Source of the DNA: a virus
Length of the DNA stretch: 47,016 bases
Virus record (IMG/VR): IMGVR_UViG_3300028840_000660
Coordinates: 1-47,016 of that record
Direction: 5' to 3' (one strand)
Position 1 is the stretch's first letter. Every line of letters begins with the position of its first letter. This document shows positions 1-30,464 of this stretch, piece by piece. The notes beneath the pieces are model-generated. The model was not told the origin of the DNA. It did not search any database and was given only the letters and a program-made list of their open reading frames with translations. The position numbers were made by a program, and so were the translations under genes.

Positions 1-144
1 CTGTTTCCTCAAAGCTATGGGAGTACAGCCTAATGGCGAAACCGCCGATGCTAAAGAAGTGCGAAAAGTGTCCACTGGTGGACAAAAACCAGTTCGTTCC
101 CGTCGAACGCCCGTTACAAGAGCCGACGTTGATCGTTATCGCCG
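1..144. repeat. Terminal direct repeat, left copy (circle junction)
   Basis: The first 144 bases are identical to the last 144 bases of the window (46873-47016). The simplest reading is a circular or terminally redundant genome cut at an arbitrary point by the assembler. The repeat lies inside coding sequence (end of a zinc-ribbon gene and start of the DNA polymerase gene), which argues against a true physical end here. The unique length is then about 46,872 bp. Confidence 0.9.
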
Positions 145-2306
145 AAGCGCCAGGGCAGACCGAAGTGCAAAAGAGAAGGCCGCTGATAGGGCAAGCGGGA
201 AGCAGGTTCAGGAGGGATCTAAACAAGGTGGGTGGAAATCACTTACGGTGCGTACTGATGAACACAGTGAACTGCCGACCTCCGCAGAACAGCAAGCCAA
301 CGGCACCGATGATACGGAGGTGTAGGCAGTATGTGGATTCTGTACTGGATGAGTATCCCGATCTTCCTATTCTTTTGCTTGGCGACGTGGCTGGTAGGTC
401 GTTCATTGTCAAAGACGAAAGGTTCCAGATCACAAAGGATCGAGGATACGCCTACGACACCAATGCTAATCGCCCTGGATTCCTTACATTCCACCCCTCC
501 TTCATTAACCGTTGCTATCACTATGATCCCATTGCAGTCCAAGTCTGGGAACATGACCTTCAGCGTGCCTGGGATTGGGGGGTGGGCAACTTTAGATACC
601 AAGATGAATACGATTATCGGTGTAGCGTCAATCACCACGACATCATAGATTATTGTGTACAGACCAGGGACTTGCTGGCGGTGGACATAGAAACCTCGGG
701 GCTTGATCCTCGTAGCGACACAATCACCGGCATAGCGTTCTGCCATACTCCTAACGATTCCATTGCCGTTCCTTGGCCGATCACCCAGAACGAAACCTAC
801 CTCGCCATCAAGGAAGTCCTGGAAAATCCCAAAGTCCACAAAGTATTTCAAAATGGTTTGTTCGATGTACAATTCCTAACAGTAGCAGGTATCCATACCG
901 AAGGATGGACATTCGATACCCGCTACGCCCACCATTGTACCTTGCCTGACGGTTCGAAGTATTTACGACCTCACAGCTTGAAATTTATGAACTCCATCTA
1001 CACCAACCTCCCACCATACAAAGCAGAATACACCGAGGTATATGGAGGTACCGGCAATGTCGATGTGGACACGATTCAAGAACTGGCTTGCCACGACACC
1101 AACGCCACGCTCCAGATCGCCCGGTGCTTACGAAAAGAACACGACCTATTGGAGCTTAATGAGTACTTTGCAACAGTACTTATGCCAACAATGTCCGTCA
1201 TCAACGACATGCACGTACGCGGTGTTAGGATTGCCGTTGAACGCCTCAAGACTTTGCAGGAGGTACTCAAGCCCAAGCTTAAAGAAATTGAGAAGTCCTT
1301 CATCGGCGTGAACCTGAACAGCCCAAAGCAAGTGGGCGATCATTTGACCGACATCGGTGTACAACTCACAAAGAAAACTCCCACCGGCAATCTGAAAGTG
1401 GACGCCGCTACGCTCCAGGAATTGCTGGACCGGGAAGAGAATCAGGAACACGCCAACGATATTGAGATGCTGTTGAAGTACCACGACCTCAAGAAAATGG
1501 AGGGCACATATTGCACTGGACTATTAAAACGCCTACATACTGGTCGGCTACATACGTCGTTTTCCATCGGCCCTTCCACGGGACGGTTCGCATCGTCCGA
1601 TCCAAATCTACAAAATATTCCAGAAGAAATACGCGAATACTTCATACCAGACGAAAACATGAAATGGGTAAAGGCAGACTACACACAGGTCGAACTATTC
1701 GTAGCCGCATTGGAGTACCAAGATGAAGATCTACTCGGGCATCTCCGATCTGGGGTTGACGTTCATGATACCTTACAACGACGTGCTTTCGGTGATCAGT
1801 ATGTCGCCAGTGATAAACGACAAAGACGAATTGCGAAGACAGTCGTGTTTGGGACTCTGTACGGACGAGGAGCGAGAGCTATTGCGGTCGCATTTGGAGT
1901 GTCTGTTGAACGGGCTAAACGATGGCAAGACGCCCTCTTCGAAACTTATCCTGCCATCAGGGAAGGACAGCAAAAGCAAGCCAGGGAAGCGAAGAAAAGC
2001 GGGATCATCCGTAGTAAGTTTGGAAACATCCGACAAACCAGGGAGTACACCAAAATAGTAAACCATCCGATTCAAGGCGGTGCAGCTGGTATCCTATGTA
2101 TTGCTTTGAAAAATGTTGGCGACCGGCTCCGCACCCTCCAACCATTGATCACAGTCCATGATGAAATAGATTTTCAAGTACCTACCGAACATCTTGCCGA
2201 ACACAAGCGACTAATCACGGACTGCATGTCAGCACCCATTGCACAGTTCGACCACTTTCAATTCCCGATTGATATAGACGTGGGGGAATCATGGGCGATC
2301 CATTAG
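33..2306 (+). CDS. Uracil-DNA glycosylase / 3'-5' exonuclease / family A DNA polymerase fusion
   Basis: Replicative DNA polymerase of 757 residues with three domains. Residues 1-165 are a family 4-type uracil-DNA glycosylase: Cys10, Cys13, Cys81 and Cys97 have the spacing of the 4Fe-4S ligands, the EAPG motif is at 38-41 and a HPS motif is at 154-156. Residues 210-360 are a DnaQ-like exonuclease with Asp218/Glu220, Asn274/Asp278 and Asp355. The polymerase domain carries motif A around Asp549 (DYTQVEL), motif B with Arg598, Lys602, Phe606 and Tyr610, and motif C HDE at 709-711. All catalytic acids appear intact. Phe606 corresponds to E. coli Pol I Phe762. Motif A ends in Phe where cellular enzymes have Arg. 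GGGAG at 19-23 supports the ATG at 33. The gene overlaps the next by 16 bp. Similar UDG fusions are known in some phage polymerases such as that of SPO1. Confidence 0.93.
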   Translation: MAKPPMLKKCEKCPLVDKNQFVPVERPLQEPTLIVIAEAPGQTEVQKRRPLIGQAGSRFRRDLNKVGGNHLRCVLMNTVNCRPPQNSKPTAPMIRRCRQYVDSVLDEYPDLPILLLGDVAGRSFIVKDERFQITKDRGYAYDTNANRPGFLTFHPSFINRCYHYDPIAVQVWEHDLQRAWDWGVGNFRYQDEYDYRCSVNHHDIIDYCVQTRDLLAVDIETSGLDPRSDTITGIAFCHTPNDSIAVPWPITQNETYLAIKEVLENPKVHKVFQNGLFDVQFLTVAGIHTEGWTFDTRYAHHCTLPDGSKYLRPHSLKFMNSIYTNLPPYKAEYTEVYGGTGNVDVDTIQELACHDTNATLQIARCLRKEHDLLELNEYFATVLMPTMSVINDMHVRGVRIAVERLKTLQEVLKPKLKEIEKSFIGVNLNSPKQVGDHLTDIGVQLTKKTPTGNLKVDAATLQELLDREENQEHANDIEMLLKYHDLKKMEGTYCTGLLKRLHTGRLHTSFSIGPSTGRFASSDPNLQNIPEEIREYFIPDENMKWVKADYTQVELFVAALEYQDEDLLGHLRSGVDVHDTLQRRAFGDQYVASDKRQRRIAKTVVFGTLYGRGARAIAVAFGVSVERAKRWQDALFETYPAIREGQQKQAREAKKSGIIRSKFGNIRQTREYTKIVNHPIQGGAAGILCIALKNVGDRLRTLQPLITVHDEIDFQVPTEHLAEHKRLITDCMSAPIAQFDHFQFPIDIDVGESWAIH

Positions 2307-4029: not shown

Positions 4030-4323
4030 TTACGAAAGGGCAATAGTTGCTGCCTCGTACTGGCTGGACGCTTCCCCGCATGAACGGACAGAAGGGGATG
4101 GCTTGGTTCTCGCACAAGCTGTAAGAGACTTGTTGGACGAGCTTGCCGAGGCGAATACCCTACTCAAGCAAGAACAGGAAGAGTGCGGCAAGCACTTGGA
4201 CGAGAAATGCAAGTTGCGTTTTGAGTTAAACAGGGCCGAGGCCGAGCTTGCCGAGTTGCGGGGTAAGCATTGGAATCAATCAGCCGACATAGTGAGTGTA
4301 AGAGCCGAGCTTGTCGAGGCGAA
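3853..4323 (+). repeat. Dispersed 17-bp direct repeats in two coiled-coil genes
   Basis: GCCGAGGCCGAGCTTGC occurs at 3853-3869 and 4235-4251. GAGCTTGCCGAGGCGAA occurs at 3925-3941 and 4139-4155, with a one-mismatch copy at 4307-4323. All are in the same reading phase of the coiled-coil genes and encode Ala-Glu-Leu-type heptads. They most likely reflect duplication of heptad-encoding units. Confidence 0.6.
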
Positions 4324-4573
4324 GGATTACTGTATCGACATACTACAGGTTATTGCCCCACAGGTTGAGCCGCTCGACACCGTAGTTGGTCTTATATCGC
4401 AACTGGATAACATCTCCGCTGGCTGGAAGGCCGAACGGGACCGGCTGCGTGAAGGCCACAAGAGAATAGAGAAAATTGTGGGGGAGCAGAAGGATACCAT
4501 CGTTGGGTTACAGGGTTATGCGACAGGGCTGCGGGAGGCGTTGGAGAAGCTGATAGAAGGAGGACAACAATGA
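4022..4573 (+). CDS. Long coiled-coil protein, unknown function
   Basis: A 183-residue protein starting with GTG at 4022; GGGGGTG just upstream is a weak ribosome-binding site and coupling to the upstream gene is likely. Most of the chain is predicted helical, with Ala/Glu/Leu heptads and recurring ELAEA-type blocks. It is probably an elongated dimer or trimer. The stop overlaps the next ATG by 4 bp. No enzymatic motif is visible. Confidence 0.65.
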   Translation: MGDYERAIVAASYWLDASPHERTEGDGLVLAQAVRDLLDELAEANTLLKQEQEECGKHLDEKCKLRFELNRAEAELAELRGKHWNQSADIVSVRAELVEAKDYCIDILQVIAPQVEPLDTVVGLISQLDNISAGWKAERDRLREGHKRIEKIVGEQKDTIVGLQGYATGLREALEKLIEGGQQ

Positions 4574-11528: not shown

Positions 11529-11804
11529 TCAGTCCTCCATCTTGTTACGGATCCAATCTACATTTTCTTTTACGTGGTTGATCTCGTTCAGTACTATACG
11601 TTGTTCACGGGCACACATTTCAGCGTGATCCTCTTTCGTCAGCGGAGTTTTGCCCCGTTCGGTAATAGGACAAATCGAACCGTTTTCACTCAGCAACCGT
11701 TTTAACACCTTCCTACCCGTTAATCCAACTGCAACACCACCACCAGCAAACACGGCAAGCAGCGTTACAAACACTTTTTCATAATCGACGATAAACTGCT
11801 CCAT
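11529..11804 (-). CDS. Single-pass membrane protein with helical tail
   Basis: A 91-residue protein. The N-terminal segment at residues 11-30 is hydrophobic (VFVTLLAVFAGGGVAVGLTG) and the rest is charged and helical, with two Cys (about 45 and 64) flanking a KTPLTKEDH block. Similar small proteins occur beside phage holins. It could be a second holin component or a lysis regulator. Its ATG overlaps the stop of the repeat-protein gene. Confidence 0.55.
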   Translation of the reverse strand: MEQFIVDYEKVFVTLLAVFAGGGVAVGLTGRKVLKRLLSENGSICPITERGKTPLTKEDHAEMCAREQRIVLNEINHVKENVDWIRNKMED

Positions 11805-13231
11805 TAGATCTCCTCAAACCATTTAACAAGGGAGACACTTGGACCGGCAGATACCACTCTATACCTGTTTCCAGGTTTAACCCGACCACGCAGCGAAAGC
11901 ACTACCCGATCATGGCTAGCATTCAGTACTGCTTCTACCTTGTCAATTTGTGTTAGTGGTGTGTTGGTTGCGTCGGAATACAGGAACGCAATGTTTTGGT
12001 TTTCAAGTAGTACATATAAAGGCGATCCAAACGCAGCGTGCGAAGGCACACCAGTAGGGGACACACTCAGCAATTCACCAACAGTTACATCCACCGTGCC
12101 AAACGCTGCATGAGAAGACACACTATCTGGGGAAACGGTTTGGTCGTACAGCAACCACACGGTACCGAATGCTGCATGGGATGGAACTCCGTTAGGACTA
12201 ACCGTCTGTGTTGCATCGGGTGTCGTAACGATGGGTATCCCGAATGCCGCGTGCGATGGGACACCGTCGGGGCTTACAGACTGGGGTACAACCATTACTA
12301 CATCCCCAAATGCGGCGTGGGTTGGAACTCCATCGGGTGCGACGTTTTGATCGTATATTAGCCAGACGGTACCAAATGCTGCGTGTGAAGGTACCCCATC
12401 AGGACTGACCGTTTGCGCGGCACCTTCCGCAGTTACAATTGGTGTCCCAAATGCCGCATGGGACGGTACAGCATCAGGACTTACGGATTGTGGGACGAGC
12501 ATTACTACATCTCCAAATGCTACATGGCTAGTAACAGCGTCTGGAGATATAGTTTGTGGTACAATCATCGCCACAGCACCGAACGCAGCGTGGCTTGGTA
12601 CTCCGTCTGGAGATACGGTTTGTGGCACGTCCAATATAACCGTGCCGAACGCTGCATGAGATGCAACGGCATCCGGTGACACCGTCTGTGGTACAATCAT
12701 AGTAACCGTGCCGAACGCTGCATGACTTAGTACACCGTCCGGCGACACGGATTGTGGTGCATCCAGCGTAACCGACCCATGTGCGGCGTGGGATGGAACA
12801 CCCGTTGGACTGATCGTCAGCGGTGCCGGAACCCAAAGTATAGTACCCCGGTCTACCCACAGGACTCCGGCGCGGTTTTTGTACAGAATGTTTGCATCAC
12901 TCACGGTAGGAACGCCGTGCGCTGAATGTGTTTCAACCCCATCCGGCGTTACGGTCTGGTCATAGATCATAAATGGCGTACCGAATGCTGCGTGGCTGGC
13001 TACACCAGTAGGTTCTACGGTCTGGTCGGACGCAACGGTAACTGTGCCGAACGCAGCATGGCTGGCTACCGCATCAGGGCTGACCGTTTGCGGAGTGTCC
13101 ATCTCAACGGCACCATGAGCGGCGTGGCTAGCAACCCCGGTAGGAGCAATAACCTCCGACACTGGATGCCAGTAGATACCATCCCTACTGGTCCACTCTA
13201 TTCCGTCACGGTCTTTCCAGTTGATAGCCAT
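11804..13231 (-). CDS. Tandem-repeat virion or surface protein (16 SPDGVPSHAAFG-type repeats)
   Basis: A 475-residue protein. A short N-terminal region with WKDRDGIEW and DGIYW-type repeats is followed by 16 copies of a motif near 'SPDGVPSHAAFGTV', mostly spaced about 20-25 residues. After repeat 4 an insert repeats the N-terminal type (RAGVLWVDRGTILWV). The last 70 residues are a unique domain. Short beta-strand repeats of this type are found in phage tail and fibre proteins. No signal peptide is present, unlike its four upstream neighbours. Host-surface binding is the likely role. Confidence 0.65.
   Translation of the reverse strand: MAINWKDRDGIEWTSRDGIYWHPVSEVIAPTGVASHAAHGAVEMDTPQTVSPDAVASHAAFGTVTVASDQTVEPTGVASHAAFGTPFMIYDQTVTPDGVETHSAHGVPTVSDANILYKNRAGVLWVDRGTILWVPAPLTISPTGVPSHAAHGSVTLDAPQSVSPDGVLSHAAFGTVTMIVPQTVSPDAVASHAAFGTVILDVPQTVSPDGVPSHAAFGAVAMIVPQTISPDAVTSHVAFGDVVMLVPQSVSPDAVPSHAAFGTPIVTAEGAAQTVSPDGVPSHAAFGTVWLIYDQNVAPDGVPTHAAFGDVVMVVPQSVSPDGVPSHAAFGIPIVTTPDATQTVSPNGVPSHAAFGTVWLLYDQTVSPDSVSSHAAFGTVDVTVGELLSVSPTGVPSHAAFGSPLYVLLENQNIAFLYSDATNTPLTQIDKVEAVLNASHDRVVLSLRGRVKPGNRYRVVSAGPSVSLVKWFEEI
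12020..13147 (-). repeat. In-frame tandem repeats (16 units)
   Basis: Sixteen degenerate units of about 60-75 bp each encode the SPDGVPSHAAFG-like motif. The recurring core on the plus strand is close to 'CCAAATGCTGCATGGGA'. Units 1-4 are separated from 5-16 by a non-repeat insert near 12800-12900. The DNA is diverged enough at third positions to suggest age, but recombination between units is possible. Confidence 0.8.
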
Positions 13232-19687: not shown

Positions 19688-19921
19688 TTAGCCTGTTTTT
19701 ACGCTGCCAACCCTGGACTTCTTTCCTACTCCCTTTGGTGTAATGATGTTGTTGACGATGGCATCCCGCTCGCTGTCGCTCATACGGTTCCACTTCTCTT
19801 CCGCTGTGCGTTCAACCATCTGCGATTCCATCTGGCGGCGCACCGACCGTAACTCGGTTTGTACTTCCTTCATCTGTGCCTGAAGTTCTTCAAACCTTTC
19901 TTCCAATTCTTTGTACGTCAT
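19688..19921 (-). CDS. Small coiled-coil protein
   Basis: A 77-residue protein. Residues 2-45 form a single heptad helix rich in Glu, Gln and Arg (KELEERFEELQAQMKEV), followed by a basic tail. The start overlaps the upstream glycosyltransferase stop by 4 bp. Possibly a trimeric virion linker or chaperone for the fibre proteins downstream. Not recognised. Confidence 0.6.
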   Translation of the reverse strand: MTYKELEERFEELQAQMKEVQTELRSVRRQMESQMVERTAEEKWNRMSDSERDAIVNNIITPKGVGKKSRVGSVKTG

Positions 19922-20721
19922 GTTTCATACCCTCCGACCTTGCGGTACGCCTGACGAAGCGTATCGCAGTTTGATGAATCCACGTACAAAGCGTCCAGAA
20001 TGTGACCGCATTGCACATTGAAATCCATACCTACTTTGTAGTCCTTTATATGCTCATGAGAACGCATAAACCAGAATACGTCCTCAGTCATGTGGGGAAC
20101 TGTCTGGAACCAGGGAAATGGTACTTTCTTGAAGTCGGAAACGCGCATCAGGGTACATCCGCAGCCGACCGCACCAACGTTGTCCCGCATTACCCCATCT
20201 TCGTCGATCAAGCGCTTGTAGTATTTTTCGTTGGCAAGTTTCAAATGTGTGCGTTTCTTGCCTACCCAACGGAATACCATCGGCTTGAAGGGATAGCCGC
20301 GAATGTAGTACCCACCGCTAACTGCGTTGAATTCCTCCATTCGCTTGATCAGGTTTGGCAACGTGTCGGACGGCATGATGGTATCGTCGTCGTAGAAGAA
20401 CACGTAATCAAAGCCGCCCTTGATCGCCATGCGGATTGCGTTGTTGCGTGCGTTTGCGATTTCAACGCGGTATTGAACTAGAAATACCACCCTAAACTCG
20501 TTCGCCTTAGCCCCCCATTCATAGACGTTCGACAGATGCGTCTGGTACGCGTAGTGCTGCACCGACGTCAGCGTCTGCACGGAAGCAAGGATGGTCTTGC
20601 AGCCTTTGGGCATTCCACGGAATTTGTTTCTCCGCAAGGTCGCAATGAAGTCCTTGTCCTTCTCGGTAACGAAGTCACCAGGAAAGGGGTGCTTGTCAAA
20701 CTGTACTTTGACAACCGCCAC
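19918..20721 (-). CDS. GT-A glycosyltransferase, copy 2
   Basis: A 267-residue glycosyltransferase-like protein. A Rossmann-type N-terminal half leads to 'ARNNAIRMAIKGGFDYVFFY' and a DDD motif at 111-113, the usual metal and nucleotide-sugar site. Further conserved blocks are RGYPFKPMVFRW, a GCGCTLMR strand and a TEDVFWF segment. It is clearly paralogous to the gene at 27178-27990: DDD falls at the same residue number and most blocks match. It probably transfers a sugar to a virion or host-surface target; the acceptor is unknown. Confidence 0.8.
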   Translation of the reverse strand: MAVVKVQFDKHPFPGDFVTEKDKDFIATLRRNKFRGMPKGCKTILASVQTLTSVQHYAYQTHLSNVYEWGAKANEFRVVFLVQYRVEIANARNNAIRMAIKGGFDYVFFYDDDTIMPSDTLPNLIKRMEEFNAVSGGYYIRGYPFKPMVFRWVGKKRTHLKLANEKYYKRLIDEDGVMRDNVGAVGCGCTLMRVSDFKKVPFPWFQTVPHMTEDVFWFMRSHEHIKDYKVGMDFNVQCGHILDALYVDSSNCDTLRQAYRKVGGYET

Positions 20722-25624: not shown

Positions 25625-26736
25625 CAGTCGTACTCCGTTACGCCGTAGCTGTCTGGTAGTTCAACCCTACCTTCTTCCCTTGGCCTAGCTGCAAACGACG
25701 CCATCGTGTATTCACGCTGCGGTGTCCACAGCTTCGTTAGTTCTATGCCGCTTTTCTGGGCAAAGCCGGTTGCGTACATGAAAGCACGTTCGATCTCCTG
25801 GCCTTCGGCTTCAATCATCAGCGCGTGCCACATTGTGAAGTACAGATACATGTCCTCGGCGTTGCGGTACGGTTTTAGCAAATGGTCAGTTTCGGCAAGG
25901 TCGTCTGGGTAGTAGCTATATTTGTAAATGAGGTTGTTGGTTGGCGACCATATCTCGTCGATAACGCCGCTGGTAACTTCCTCTCCGTCCGAATCGACCA
26001 GATCCCAGAACGAACCACCGTCGCCTTCTTCTTCTATTTCGGTGATTAGTCCGTAGGATCGGCTGAACGTCCATGTATGTGTTCCACCGTCGGTGGTGGT
26101 TCCGTTTGCTGTAGCAGATCCACCGCCAGTATCAGTGATTGGCTCGTTATCTGTAAAAGATCCAGGGTCAGTCTCAAAGTAGAGCTTTCCGTCGTATCCA
26201 TTCTGGTCGACGTATAGTATCTCTGCACTGGCTCCAGAACTTCCCCCTGTAGCAGTCTCTCCAATTGTGAAATCTTGCGTCTGAGCGTCAAAACTGACGT
26301 AATAGGGATCGACGATGGCATGTGGTACTCCACTGGTCGAATCCATTAAGAACCTGTCGCCGTCCGTGCCTGGGCATTTGTACAGCCAAAGTACGTGTTG
26401 TTTCTCAACGTCAAGCGTATACTCGTCAGGAACCCCCCGTTCATCCCGCCACGTATTGCTGACCTTTGCCCACGAACGAATGGAAGCAGGTTGTAATGGT
26501 TCGTTGTTGTATGTAACCCAGAGCAGCTTTCGAAGGGCCGAGTCGAGCGTGTATTTTGGTTTGTTCTTCTGGCCCCATAGCCAGCCGCGCTTGGTGAAAG
26601 CATCCAGCTGTTCCACAAGGACGCGGTTGCAGGAGTTGATGATCGTCAGGATCTGCGCCCTGGTAAGGTAGTTCGGGTTGGTTGTGTCTTCCGCAAGTTG
26701 TAGTAAAATGCGGTCAATTAGACTCGATACAAGCAT
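25624..26736 (-). CDS. Head-tail adaptor-like protein
   Basis: A 370-residue protein. The N-terminal 50 residues are helical (LIDRILLQLAED, YLTRAQILTIINSCNRVLVEQL), then 'TLDSALRKLLWVTYNNEPL' and a beta-rich middle, then a C-terminal helix near 320-345. This layout is seen in phage neck/adaptor proteins placed after the capsid genes. A Gly/Ser/Thr-rich insert near 160-220 resembles a small beta domain found in several virion proteins. Overlap with the upstream methyltransferase gene is 23 bp. Confidence 0.6.
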   Translation of the reverse strand: MLVSSLIDRILLQLAEDTTNPNYLTRAQILTIINSCNRVLVEQLDAFTKRGWLWGQKNKPKYTLDSALRKLLWVTYNNEPLQPASIRSWAKVSNTWRDERGVPDEYTLDVEKQHVLWLYKCPGTDGDRFLMDSTSGVPHAIVDPYYVSFDAQTQDFTIGETATGGSSGASAEILYVDQNGYDGKLYFETDPGSFTDNEPITDTGGGSATANGTTTDGGTHTWTFSRSYGLITEIEEEGDGGSFWDLVDSDGEEVTSGVIDEIWSPTNNLIYKYSYYPDDLAETDHLLKPYRNAEDMYLYFTMWHALMIEAEGQEIERAFMYATGFAQKSGIELTKLWTPQREYTMASFAARPREEGRVELPDSYGVTEYD

Positions 26737-27181
26737 CTTGTGGTTTCCTTACGTGTGCTTTGACGTACGGTCCAAACTGCGTCATGCCGACGGCATTGTA
26801 TTCCTGGGCTATTAAAACGTCCCACTTGTTGCAGTTGTACATACCGCCAAGCGGCTGATTGCGGTCGTAGTATATGAAACTGTTCACGTTCCAGAATGAT
26901 TTGTGCGTTGGATCCTGGAACGCGCCCATGCCGTTTGACGATGGGACGTCGATTTCTGCGGTCGAGCCGGGTTTCAGGCACCGGTATAGTTCATTCATTG
27001 TGTGTAATGGTTCTGGGAGGTGTTCAAATATATGTGAGGCACGGACCGAATCAAGGGAGGAAGACTTGAAAGGCCAGCCAGCAGTCAAGTCAGCGACCAC
27101 ATCCACACCGGGAAATGGACGTATATCGACGCCGACGTAACCGTCCGGCTTGCTCGATCCGCACCCCAACTCAACGTTCAT
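26714..27181 (-). CDS. SAM-dependent methyltransferase (class I, type 11-like)
   Basis: A 155-residue methyltransferase. Motif I ELGCGSS lies at residues 4-10, an acidic strand end follows (VGVDIRPF, residues 16-23), and 'IFEHLPEP' near residues 51-58 is the usual motif IV/EHL block. It is short for the fold, ending near the sixth strand. It overlaps the glycosyltransferase gene by 4 bp, so the pair may act on the same glycan, for example O-methylating a sugar. The substrate is not determined. Confidence 0.75.
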   Translation of the reverse strand: MNVELGCGSSKPDGYVGVDIRPFPGVDVVADLTAGWPFKSSSLDSVRASHIFEHLPEPLHTMNELYRCLKPGSTAEIDVPSSNGMGAFQDPTHKSFWNVNSFIYYDRNQPLGGMYNCNKWDVLIAQEYNAVGMTQFGPYVKAHVRKPQDACIESN

Positions 27182-27990
27182 AACATACCCCCCATCTTCT
27201 TTAGCTTCCGATGGAAACGGCGAACCGTATCCACGTTATAGCTGTCCACGTATATTGGATCGCATAGATGGCCGCAACAGATATTAAAATCCATTCCGAC
27301 CTTGTAATCTTCAATGTGTTCGGCGGCGCGTGTAAACCACCACGCATCTTCCGTGTGGCCGTGTCCGGTATAAAACCAGGGATAGGGTACATTTTTGAAG
27401 TCCTCGACACGGAACAGGGTGCAACCGCATCCCACGCCGCTGACGCGATGGCGAAGGACGTTGTCTTTGTCGACGTGTTTCTTGTATTCGTTCCAGCTGT
27501 ACAGCCGCATGTGGTGTTTGCCGTTCTCACCGGCCCATCGAAAGACCATTGGATTAAATGGATAGCCACGGACGAAGTATCCGGCAGAGATGGCGTTGAA
27601 CTCTTCCATGCGGGGAAGCAAGCGACCGAGGACGTCCCGGTCGTTTACCGTGTCATCGTCGAAGAAATACAGGTAGTCGAAGCCGCCGGAGATGGCGAAC
27701 TTGACGGCGTTGTTCCGGCTGTCTGCAATCGAAGCCCGTCGCAGCGTAATGAACGAAAAGCTGTAGTCAGGATGGTCCCGTCCCAACTGATAGAAGTTAA
27801 TACAGTGCGTTGCGTGGGACTCGTTGGGAATCATCGTAAGCGTCAGCGAAGCAACAAGCACCTTTTTCTTGCCGGGATCGGGACGCTTACCAAATTCTTC
27901 GTTCACATAGGCTGCAAATCCTTCGTCTATCTCGACTAGCTTTTCGCCCGGCCTGATTGCGTCTGCTGGGTGGCGCTTTTTCTTAGCCAT
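27178..27990 (-). CDS. GT-A glycosyltransferase, copy 1
   Basis: A 270-residue glycosyltransferase-like protein with a DDD motif at 111-113 after 'GGFDYLYFF', the block FVRGYPFNPMVFRW, GCGCTLFR and a TEDAWWF segment, and a Cys-containing C-terminus. It is paralogous to the gene at 19918-20721. It begins 55 bp inside the preceding zinc-ribbon gene and overlaps the methyltransferase gene by 4 bp. Its place inside the virion operon suggests modification of a virion protein or of host surface sugar late in infection. Confidence 0.8.
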   Translation of the reverse strand: MAKKKRHPADAIRPGEKLVEIDEGFAAYVNEEFGKRPDPGKKKVLVASLTLTMIPNESHATHCINFYQLGRDHPDYSFSFITLRRASIADSRNNAVKFAISGGFDYLYFFDDDTVNDRDVLGRLLPRMEEFNAISAGYFVRGYPFNPMVFRWAGENGKHHMRLYSWNEYKKHVDKDNVLRHRVSGVGCGCTLFRVEDFKNVPYPWFYTGHGHTEDAWWFTRAAEHIEDYKVGMDFNICCGHLCDPIYVDSYNVDTVRRFHRKLKKMGGML

Positions 27991-28764: not shown

Positions 28765-29643
28765 CTAGGTGATCTCCGTAATGTTCCCGTACGCGATAAC
28801 GCCGTGCTTGGAACGTTTGGAGGTCGTCAGGTTGCCCATCCACAGGATCAACGCGGCCTCGGTGTCCTGGTTGACCGGTCGCTGGAAAGGGGTTCGGATG
28901 AAGTTCGTTTGGCTGTCGATGTACAGCTGGATAAAGTTCAGGTTTAGGAAGATAAACCCAGCGTACGTCAGCAATCCGTTGGCCGCCGTGATCGAGTTGG
29001 TGGTGTAGGCTTCGTCCCAGAACAGGGTCAGGTTGCGGAACTGGATGTTGTCGAAGCCCATCTTCGCCATTTCGGGGTCACGGTAAATCTGCCTCGTGGC
29101 CATGTAGTTCTCATAACCCATGTATCCGGCGAGGCTTGCGAAGCCGAAGTTAGGAGGACCACCCGTACCCTTGCTGCACCACGCGTAGACTTGGCGCATC
29201 TTGACGGGGCCGGTCGCCAGCGTTGGCGCGTCGCTGTCGTCGATCCAGGTAAGTGCCGTACCCGCATCGTCGCCGACCTTGTTCTGCCACCATGTGTAGG
29301 TTGAAGTGTCGATCTCGCCAACGTCGTAGCTGTCTGACGCTTCGGCTACGATCGCACCCAGGCCAGCCATTTGCTTCGTGCTGGATTCCTGAGTTCTGTT
29401 GTACCGGCCCGTGCTGTACAGCGAACTGTTCATCTCTTCGAACAGGGACATCTCGGCCTGTTTGATCTTGGCAGAGATTAGGTTGATCAGCTGGGAACGG
29501 CCACTGTTCATTCGCCGGGTCTTCCTGTCGATTGATACGGATGCGGCCAGCTGCGCCCACGGATACCGGGCCGCCGTGATACCTTCCTGGACGGCGACGT
29601 CGATGGTGTCGTCAGCTTCGTACCAACCGGTCGTGAGGTTTTT
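28765..29643 (-). CDS. Major capsid protein, exon 2 (C-terminal 292 residues)
   Basis: Exon 2 of the HK97-fold-type major capsid gene. It begins at 29643, the base after the intron's terminal G, with codons for K-N-L-T-T-G-W. Joined to exon 1 it gives a 353-residue protein in which the junction reads ...PLMYG/KNLTTGWYEADD..., a continuous pattern typical of this capsid family (MYG-K-N-T-T near the N-terminal arm end, then a DTIDV strand and EGITAARY). An ORF caller would start this exon at TTG 29646, inside the intron; that start has no ribosome-binding site and gives a capsid lacking its first 61 residues. Translation presumably occurs from spliced mRNA. Confidence 0.85.
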   Translation of the reverse strand, partial: KNLTTGWYEADDTIDVAVQEGITAARYPWAQLAASVSIDRKTRRMNSGRSQLINLISAKIKQAEMSLFEEMNSSLYSTGRYNRTQESSTKQMAGLGAIVAEASDSYDVGEIDTSTYTWWQNKVGDDAGTALTWIDDSDAPTLATGPVKMRQVYAWCSKGTGGPPNFGFASLAGYMGYENYMATRQIYRDPEMAKMGFDNIQFRNLTLFWDEAYTTNSITAANGLLTYAGFIFLNLNFIQLYIDSQTNFIRTPFQRPVNQDTEAALILWMGNLTTSKRSKHGVIAYGNITEIT

Positions 29644-30281
29644 CAAAACCGCTACACTTTCATGCAGCGCTGGACTCTACCTTCGTGTTCTCTGCAAACA
29701 CGCCCAATGTCGAGTCTCTGAGGCTTTGGCTGAGTTTGTATCCATTCAAGTCGCGCATGGATTGGGCAAATGAAAACTCTTTTGCTCCGTACGGCGTTCC
29801 ATGAGGCATTGAAAGCCTATGCTCGCAGAATTCTAGTAGCTTCTCTGCGGCCTTACGCTTCCTTGATAACGTCATATATGGGATGATTTGTGGGAGAAGC
29901 TTTACACAACGCTTCATGCCGATTACGGCTACCTCCAGTTGGTCTTTCTTCCGCTCATCGTTTATGCGAGAAGGACGCTTCCGAACGTACAAAGTACCAA
30001 CACCCAGAGACTTTATGATACTGCCAGCACGTTCAATCAACTCAAAGTCCGTCCCTGCTACGGAGAATTGTGGACGAAGGGTTGGTTTCTGGCGTTTGTA
30101 CTGTTGCCGCGCCAGATGAAAACAGCCTTCGCCCTCTATGAATCCAACCAACCATCCCATATCAAACTCTGCCTTTGCCTGCTGATTGTCCATTGTTTCA
30201 TCCATTTAATTTTTACCTTATCAGTATAAATGGCTTTAGGAGTTTCCAGCATTTTCCTGGGTTTTAGTACGGCAAAAATCT
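29644..30281 (-). mobile_element. Group I intron in the major capsid gene
   Basis: A 638-bp intervening sequence. The 5' splice site follows GGT at 30284-30282: exon GUACGGU pairs with intron GCCGUAC (30273-30267) in seven base pairs ending in the diagnostic U-G wobble, with an 8-nt loop (P1). The intron ends in G (29644) and exon 2 starts AAAAACC, which can pair with the UUUUU just 5' of the guide (P10). Core-like segments are GGAAACTCCTAAAGCC near 30247-30232, a candidate P7 (GACTC 29716-29712 with GAGTC 29677-29673) and a perfect P8-like hairpin (CGTGTT 29702-29697, AACACG 29689-29684). It carries a homing endonuclease gene, so it should be mobile. Confidence 0.87.
29660..30205 (-). CDS. 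Intron-encoded LAGLIDADG homing endonuclease
   Basis: A 181-residue protein with one LAGLIDADG helix at about residues 17-28 (GWLVGFIEGEGCF), so it should act as a homodimer. The rest fits the LAGLIDADG_1 fold: 'FSVAGTDFELIERAGSIIKSLGVG' after the first strand and 'LEVAVIGMKRCVKLLPQII' in the second half. It would cut intronless copies of the capsid gene near the insertion site and drive intron spread; it may also help splicing as a maturase. The gene lies wholly inside the intron. Its last 20 or so codons overlap the proposed P7/P8 core elements. ATG 30205 or the ATG four codons later could be the start. Confidence 0.88.
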   Translation of the reverse strand: MDETMDNQQAKAEFDMGWLVGFIEGEGCFHLARQQYKRQKPTLRPQFSVAGTDFELIERAGSIIKSLGVGTLYVRKRPSRINDERKKDQLEVAVIGMKRCVKLLPQIIPYMTLSRKRKAAEKLLEFCEHRLSMPHGTPYGAKEFSFAQSMRDLNGYKLSQSLRDSTLGVFAENTKVESSAA

Positions 30282-30464
30282 ACCGTACATCAGCGGTACA
30301 ATGATGGATGCACCACCATCCTGGTACTTTACTGCATCCGATTTCCTCAACTTGAAGAAAAGCGGATTCCCCTTGAAGATATTGTCTTCCAACGTCGGTC
30401 GGTAGTAATCCAACGTTGTCGACAATACCTGATCAAAGGTTCTGGTTTCTGATACAATGCTCAT
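30282..30464 (-). CDS. Major capsid protein, exon 1 (N-terminal 61 residues)
   Basis: Exon 1 encodes residues 1-61, from ATG 30464 to the Gly codon GGT ending at 30282. It covers the N-terminal arm: TLDYYRPTLEDNIFKGNPLF, a Lys-rich turn and 'GASIIVPLMYG'. Read without splicing, the frame continues five codons into the intron and stops at TAA (30266-30264), so an unspliced transcript gives only a 66-residue fragment. The gap to the scaffold gene upstream is 12 bp and contains a GGGAGAG ribosome-binding site. Confidence 0.87.

Follow-up and report, generated by a model that had tools for sequence, protein, structure and literature searches.

Group I introns of phages have been reported mostly in genes for nucleotide and DNA metabolism, such as those encoding DNA polymerase and reductase, and in terminase genes (PMC11878797). 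Capsid introns are nevertheless documented. The mycobacteriophage LittleE has an intron in its capsid gene, described as 'most likely a group I', that contains a LAGLIDADG ORF; splicing was demonstrated by RT-PCR and N-terminal sequencing (PMC3706429). The same paper cites lactococcal phage Tuc2009 on capsid introns. Delta- and Zeta-group crAss-like phages also have introns in their capsid genes (PMC7886860). A first-pass annotation of the locus described here noted that phage introns are reported less often in capsid genes than in replication, lysis and terminase genes. That bias holds, but capsid group I introns of this kind are already known, and our locus adds one more. What is new is the capsid family, which is different, and the insertion site, which is common to three phages.

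The similarities to known systems are partial. Like our locus, LittleE has an I-CreI-like LAGLIDADG endonuclease within a major capsid intron, a U at the 3' end of exon 1 and a terminal intron G. The endonuclease region matches ours weakly (23% identity, E about 1). Conversely, the LittleE endonuclease is on the opposite strand, and both the capsid family and the insertion site are different. The crAss-like phage cr50_1 (MT774375) also has a capsid group I intron, and P4-P5-P6 nucleotides are common to both. However, its intron ORF is annotated as an HNH endonuclease, rather than LAGLIDADG, and the phage order and insertion site differ. The introns of Bacillus phage AR9 and Pseudomonas phage KIL1 differ from ours in host gene, which is terminase or a putative portal gene respectively. 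I-CreI and I-CvuI share a single LAGLIDADG motif and an alpha-beta fold with our endonuclease (TM 0.6-0.7) but are only 14-20% identical to it.

The divided capsid gene

The window, which is the whole 47,016-nt stretch analysed (IMG/VR IMGVR_UViG_3300028840_000660), is a fragmentary metagenomic record of an uncultured phage. Its major capsid gene occupies positions 28765-30464 on the minus strand and is split by a 638-nt insert (29644-30281). The features are listed in Table 1. From the sequence and its comparisons, the insert is almost certainly a mobile group I intron.

Table 1. Features assigned at the capsid locus of the window.
Feature	Position	Strand	Description
Capsid exon 1	30282..30464	-	61 aa; aligned with intact capsids
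Capsid exon 2	28765..29643	-	292 aa plus stop; NF033394 and phrog_9953 profile matches
Group I intron (predicted)	29644..30281	-	638 nt
LAGLIDADG homing endonuclease	29660..30205	-	181 aa; single motif; in intron
P10 UUUUU	30274..30278	-	pairs with exon 2 AAAAA 29643-29639
P1 guide GCCGUAC	30267..30273	-	pairs with exon GUACGGU 30288-30282
P3 5' strand CCCAG	30257..30261	-	pairs with UUGGG 29707-29703
P4 5' strand UGCUGG	30246..30251	-	pairs with UCAGCA 30185-30180; invariant in relatives
P5 5' strand UCC	30239..30241	-	pairs with GGA 30191-30189
P5a hairpin CCAUUUA...UAAAUGG	30202..30233	-	
P6 5' strand GGC-AAA-GGC	30171..30179	-	pairs with GCC-AAA-GCC 29730-29722
P7	29673..29716	-	GACUC 29716-29712 / GAGUC 29677-29673; span holds P3' and P8
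P8 CGUGUU/AACACG	29702-29697/29689-29684	-	
P9 hairpin	29650..29669	-	CGCUGCAU-GAAA-GUGUAGCG
Terminal G of intron	29644..29644	-	sequence

Exon 1 ends with PLMYG. Read without splicing, the frame continues as RFLPY and stops after these five codons. Joining position 30282 to 29643, as originally proposed, gives a single frame of 353 residues that reads PLMYG/KNLTTGW. There is an A both directly after exon 1 and as the first base of exon 2. Hence, a joint moved by one base yields an identical mRNA, and the 30282/29643 joint was chosen because of the U.G and terminal-G rules for group I introns.

Exon 2 alone exceeds the NCBIfam cut-off for NF033394 (capsid_maj_Podo, E 3.6e-57). The joined protein matches the phrog_9953 major head protein over residues 7-345 (E 5.9e-53). 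These matches, together with alignment to intact capsids, support the capsid identity. Failure of such capsids to align across the joint had been named as an observation that would count against the split. Intact capsids align straight through Gly61/Lys62; they include those of Myxococcus phages Mx8 and Mx9, Stenotrophomonas phage BUCT555, Ruegeria phage 45A6 and others. Related phages with an uninterrupted capsid gene therefore exist, Mx8, Mx9 and the IMG/VR contig L066 being examples. A search with exon 2 of a further contig, L050, recovered 17 IMG/VR capsids, and 16 of these also cross the joint unbroken, the single exception being L050 itself (as L065). Searches for close relatives of the window phage, with or without an intron, found none: an exact peptide pattern from capsid exon 2 returned one distant locus only and one from the terminase returned nothing.

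Elsewhere, the window contains an ORF in which a uracil-DNA glycosylase domain is fused to a 3'-5' exonuclease and family-A DNA polymerase (33-2306, plus strand). Two similar family-2 glycosyltransferases lie within the virion gene block (27178-27990 and 19918-20721, both minus strand), one of them adjoined by a methyltransferase-like ORF (26714-27181). A further ORF (11804-13231, minus strand) is made of many copies of VSPDGVPSHAAFGTV-like repeats.

The ribozyme core and related introns

All of the core helices, P1 and P3-P9, could be placed by hand, as could P10. P1 is a helix of 7 bp, GUACGGU/GCCGUAC, including the terminal U.G pair at the 5' splice site. We scanned all 17 U positions between 30 nt upstream and 16 nt downstream of this site; at the proposed U alone does a helix anchored by U.G exceed 4 bp. 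The last base of the intron is G, as expected. P10 comprises 5 bp (AAAAA:UUUUU). The next two bases of exon 2, CC, are unpaired, and the earlier description of AAAAACC as complementary was slightly overstated. The interior has the pseudoknotted P3-P7 core with P4, P5, P6 and P8, and P6 consists of two GGC/GCC helices flanking AAA/AAA. When 20 kb of the window (both strands) was scanned with a descriptor of the P3-P8 topology that requires A-rich joins, the one match was this intron. With 40 shuffled sequences the descriptor gave 11 matches (0.28 each), a rate that corresponds to a ~0.4% chance of a match within the 638-nt interval.

The first-pass annotation called for a group I covariance model to be fitted to the interval. 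At the curated threshold, an Rfam search found no match in the window. In a relaxed search RF00028 was the sole group I match, and it aligned over its full length (1-253 of 253) at 29651-30313. Thus, a group I model does fit the interval, although the score, 15.7 bits, was under the gathering score of 50. The E-value is 0.21 over 4,227 families and ~5e-5 for a single model named beforehand. The alignment puts a 435-nt stretch in the P6 region, and we attribute the low score to this insertion in the P6 loop. The AR9 terL and KIL1 introns are over the RF00028 cut-off. Conversely, matches to the cr50_1 capsid intron are split and sub-threshold, and there is no RF00028 match at the capsid-site introns of L050 and a third contig, L049. 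Since ORF-bearing relatives also fail, the cut-off is a detection limit rather than a defining property.

The first ~180 nt of the intron, used in a blastn search, identified introns in AR9 terL, PBS1, Thomasclavelia phages and cr50_1. P3-P6 nucleotides are 71-72% identical to the AR9 terL and KIL1 introns over the aligned stretch, and all the related introns have almost the same sequence in P4 and the joins next to it. P5a, which lies outside the endonuclease domain, covaries. In six introns, all 42 cells are paired and both sides have changed in 6 of the 7 pairs; slid controls were far lower. A pattern built on P4-P5-P4' identified 45 loci in IMG/VR, among which both strands of P3 vary with pairing kept. 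Two stricter intron patterns had zero matches. Taken together, the fold, P1, P10, the terminal G and these relatives support the group I reading and the splice sites. In AR9 terL (L013, 504-1849) we also observed four group I introns within ~1.35 kb, each of which scores above the Rfam cut-off.

The intron ORF and the P7 helix

An ORF that was absent from the first-pass annotation fills most of the intron. It matches PF00961 (LAGLIDADG_1) with 26.2 bits against a cut-off of 23.1. The AlphaFold model has a mean pLDDT of 84.7, and its best PDB match is I-CreI, so that both the motif and the fold are those of a LAGLIDADG endonuclease. I-CreI has a single motif and acts as a homodimer. The window endonuclease, also with one motif, is probably a homodimer of this type. 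Exact endonuclease peptide patterns found nothing in viral contigs or genome contigs. Against named phages there was no match at E 1e-5 and only weak matches at relaxed E-values.

In two IMG/VR contigs, L050 and L049, this capsid codon is likewise interrupted by a homologous intron, and their endonucleases are 63% and 59% identical to that of the window. Most of the window ORF lies within the P6 loop and it overlaps the catalytic core at both ends. Relatives start at an ATG inside AUGGACAAUCAGCA, in P5/P4'; this start is also available in the window (ATG at 30193, 177 aa). Four codons before it, the window ORF has an extra ATG in the same frame, located in the 3' strand of P5a, and there is an AAGG in the P5a loop. 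With the first ATG in a stem and AAGG in its loop, ribozyme folding may limit translation of the endonuclease.

At the other end, the UAG within the 3' strand of P7 (GAUAUAGUC) is the very codon that terminates the ORFs of the relatives L058, L060 and L062, which are in the same frame. This strand is GUAGAGUC in the window, L049 and L050, where the 5' strand is GACUC, so the two are still complementary. The outer pair of P7, next to the guanosine site, is thus C-G in the capsid-site lineage versus A-U in relatives. The patterns behind this tally accepted A or C at that position and no other base, so further states may exist besides these two. The paired change from A-U to C-G converts UAG to GAG, and the ORF therefore runs on across the catalytic core as far as a UGA at the P9 loop. 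The C-terminal ~30 residues, which the core encodes, are poorly ordered in the model.

The P7 change may have been selected because it opens the endonuclease frame. Our broader suggestion is tentative, and we think it less probable than its alternatives: that introns of one lineage became specialists for a single capsid codon and lengthened the endonuclease frame until it crossed the ribozyme core. If so, the core would encode protein as well as catalytic RNA, splicing and endonuclease translation would be mutually exclusive for each transcript, and this exclusivity could time capsid production.

The odd C-G pair, and the sub-threshold Rfam score, might instead mark a degenerate group I intron that has lost splicing in a dying or defective genome. 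This is very unlikely. None of the core helices is broken, the change in one P7 strand is matched in the other and is common to L049 and L050, and the reading frames of the two exons and of the endonuclease remain open and are conserved.

The empty allele and its implications

If 625 nt are removed from L050, its capsid reads PLMYG/KNDTVKSYSG. Likewise, removal of 641 nt from L049 gives LMYG/DNSTVDWYEDY. The L066 capsid is 88% identical to that of L050 and has no intron. Alignment of the L050 and L066 flanks contains one gap only, of exactly 625 nt. Hence, the site exists with (L050) and without (L066) the element, and the empty allele, which is the counterpart of L050 and not of the window phage, shows the L050 intron boundaries. 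The L049 capsid gene contains a second group I intron (4203-4443, minus strand), beyond the short exon that follows the first one; RF00028 recognises this second intron with 54.1 bits, above the cut-off.

These alleles bear on the remaining explanations. The insert could be a free-standing homing endonuclease gene between two separately translated capsid subunits, made without splicing. The endonuclease ORF is indeed located between the two capsid parts, and a TTG (29646) can open exon 2. This arrangement leaves unexplained the ribozyme fold and its covariation, as well as the exact, codon-preserving gap against L066, and we regard it as highly improbable. An assembly chimera or sequencing error, conceivable for a locus known from a metagenomic contig only, is just as improbable; the same arrangement is present in two independent contigs, L049 and L050, with endonucleases 59-63% identical. 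Least probable is an intein or translational bypassing, either of which would also restore a continuous protein: stop codons interrupt every frame of the insert and its length is not divisible by three, which excludes an intein, and 638 nt far exceeds the known phage bypass of T4 gene 60 (about 50 nt), with a ribozyme fold present besides.

Relatives have the element either at this very position or not at all, with the empty site undamaged, so the intron reading is secure. As far as comparison of sequences can decide, the same-site introns and the empty allele settle the matter in its favour. If splicing follows the known chemistry of group I introns, P7 would bind an external guanosine, which would attack after U(30282). 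The free 3' OH of exon 1 would then attack after G(29644), joining the exons, and capsid would be made only from spliced RNA. The start codon in P5a/P5 and the stop in P9 would make ORF translation and ribozyme folding exclusive events for any one RNA. For mobility, the endonuclease is predicted to cut intronless capsid genes at ...ATGTACGGT/AAAAAC..., and repair of the cut would copy the intron into the capsid gene. Between the window and L050 the endonucleases are 63% identical and the capsids 43%. Such conservation of the endonuclease above the capsid fits lateral spread by homing, without amounting to proof.

The locus, for which relatives supply an empty allele, is a clear example of a homing intron within a structural gene that is expressed late and at a very high level. 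It runs against the reported bias to nucleotide- and DNA-metabolism genes. Where an endonuclease ORF extends into the core, an intron can escape the Rfam model for group I and, consequently, split capsid genes in metagenomic data are probably under-called. In the paired P7 change, the helix is kept and the frame is opened, so that one sequence would serve both RNA catalysis and protein coding.
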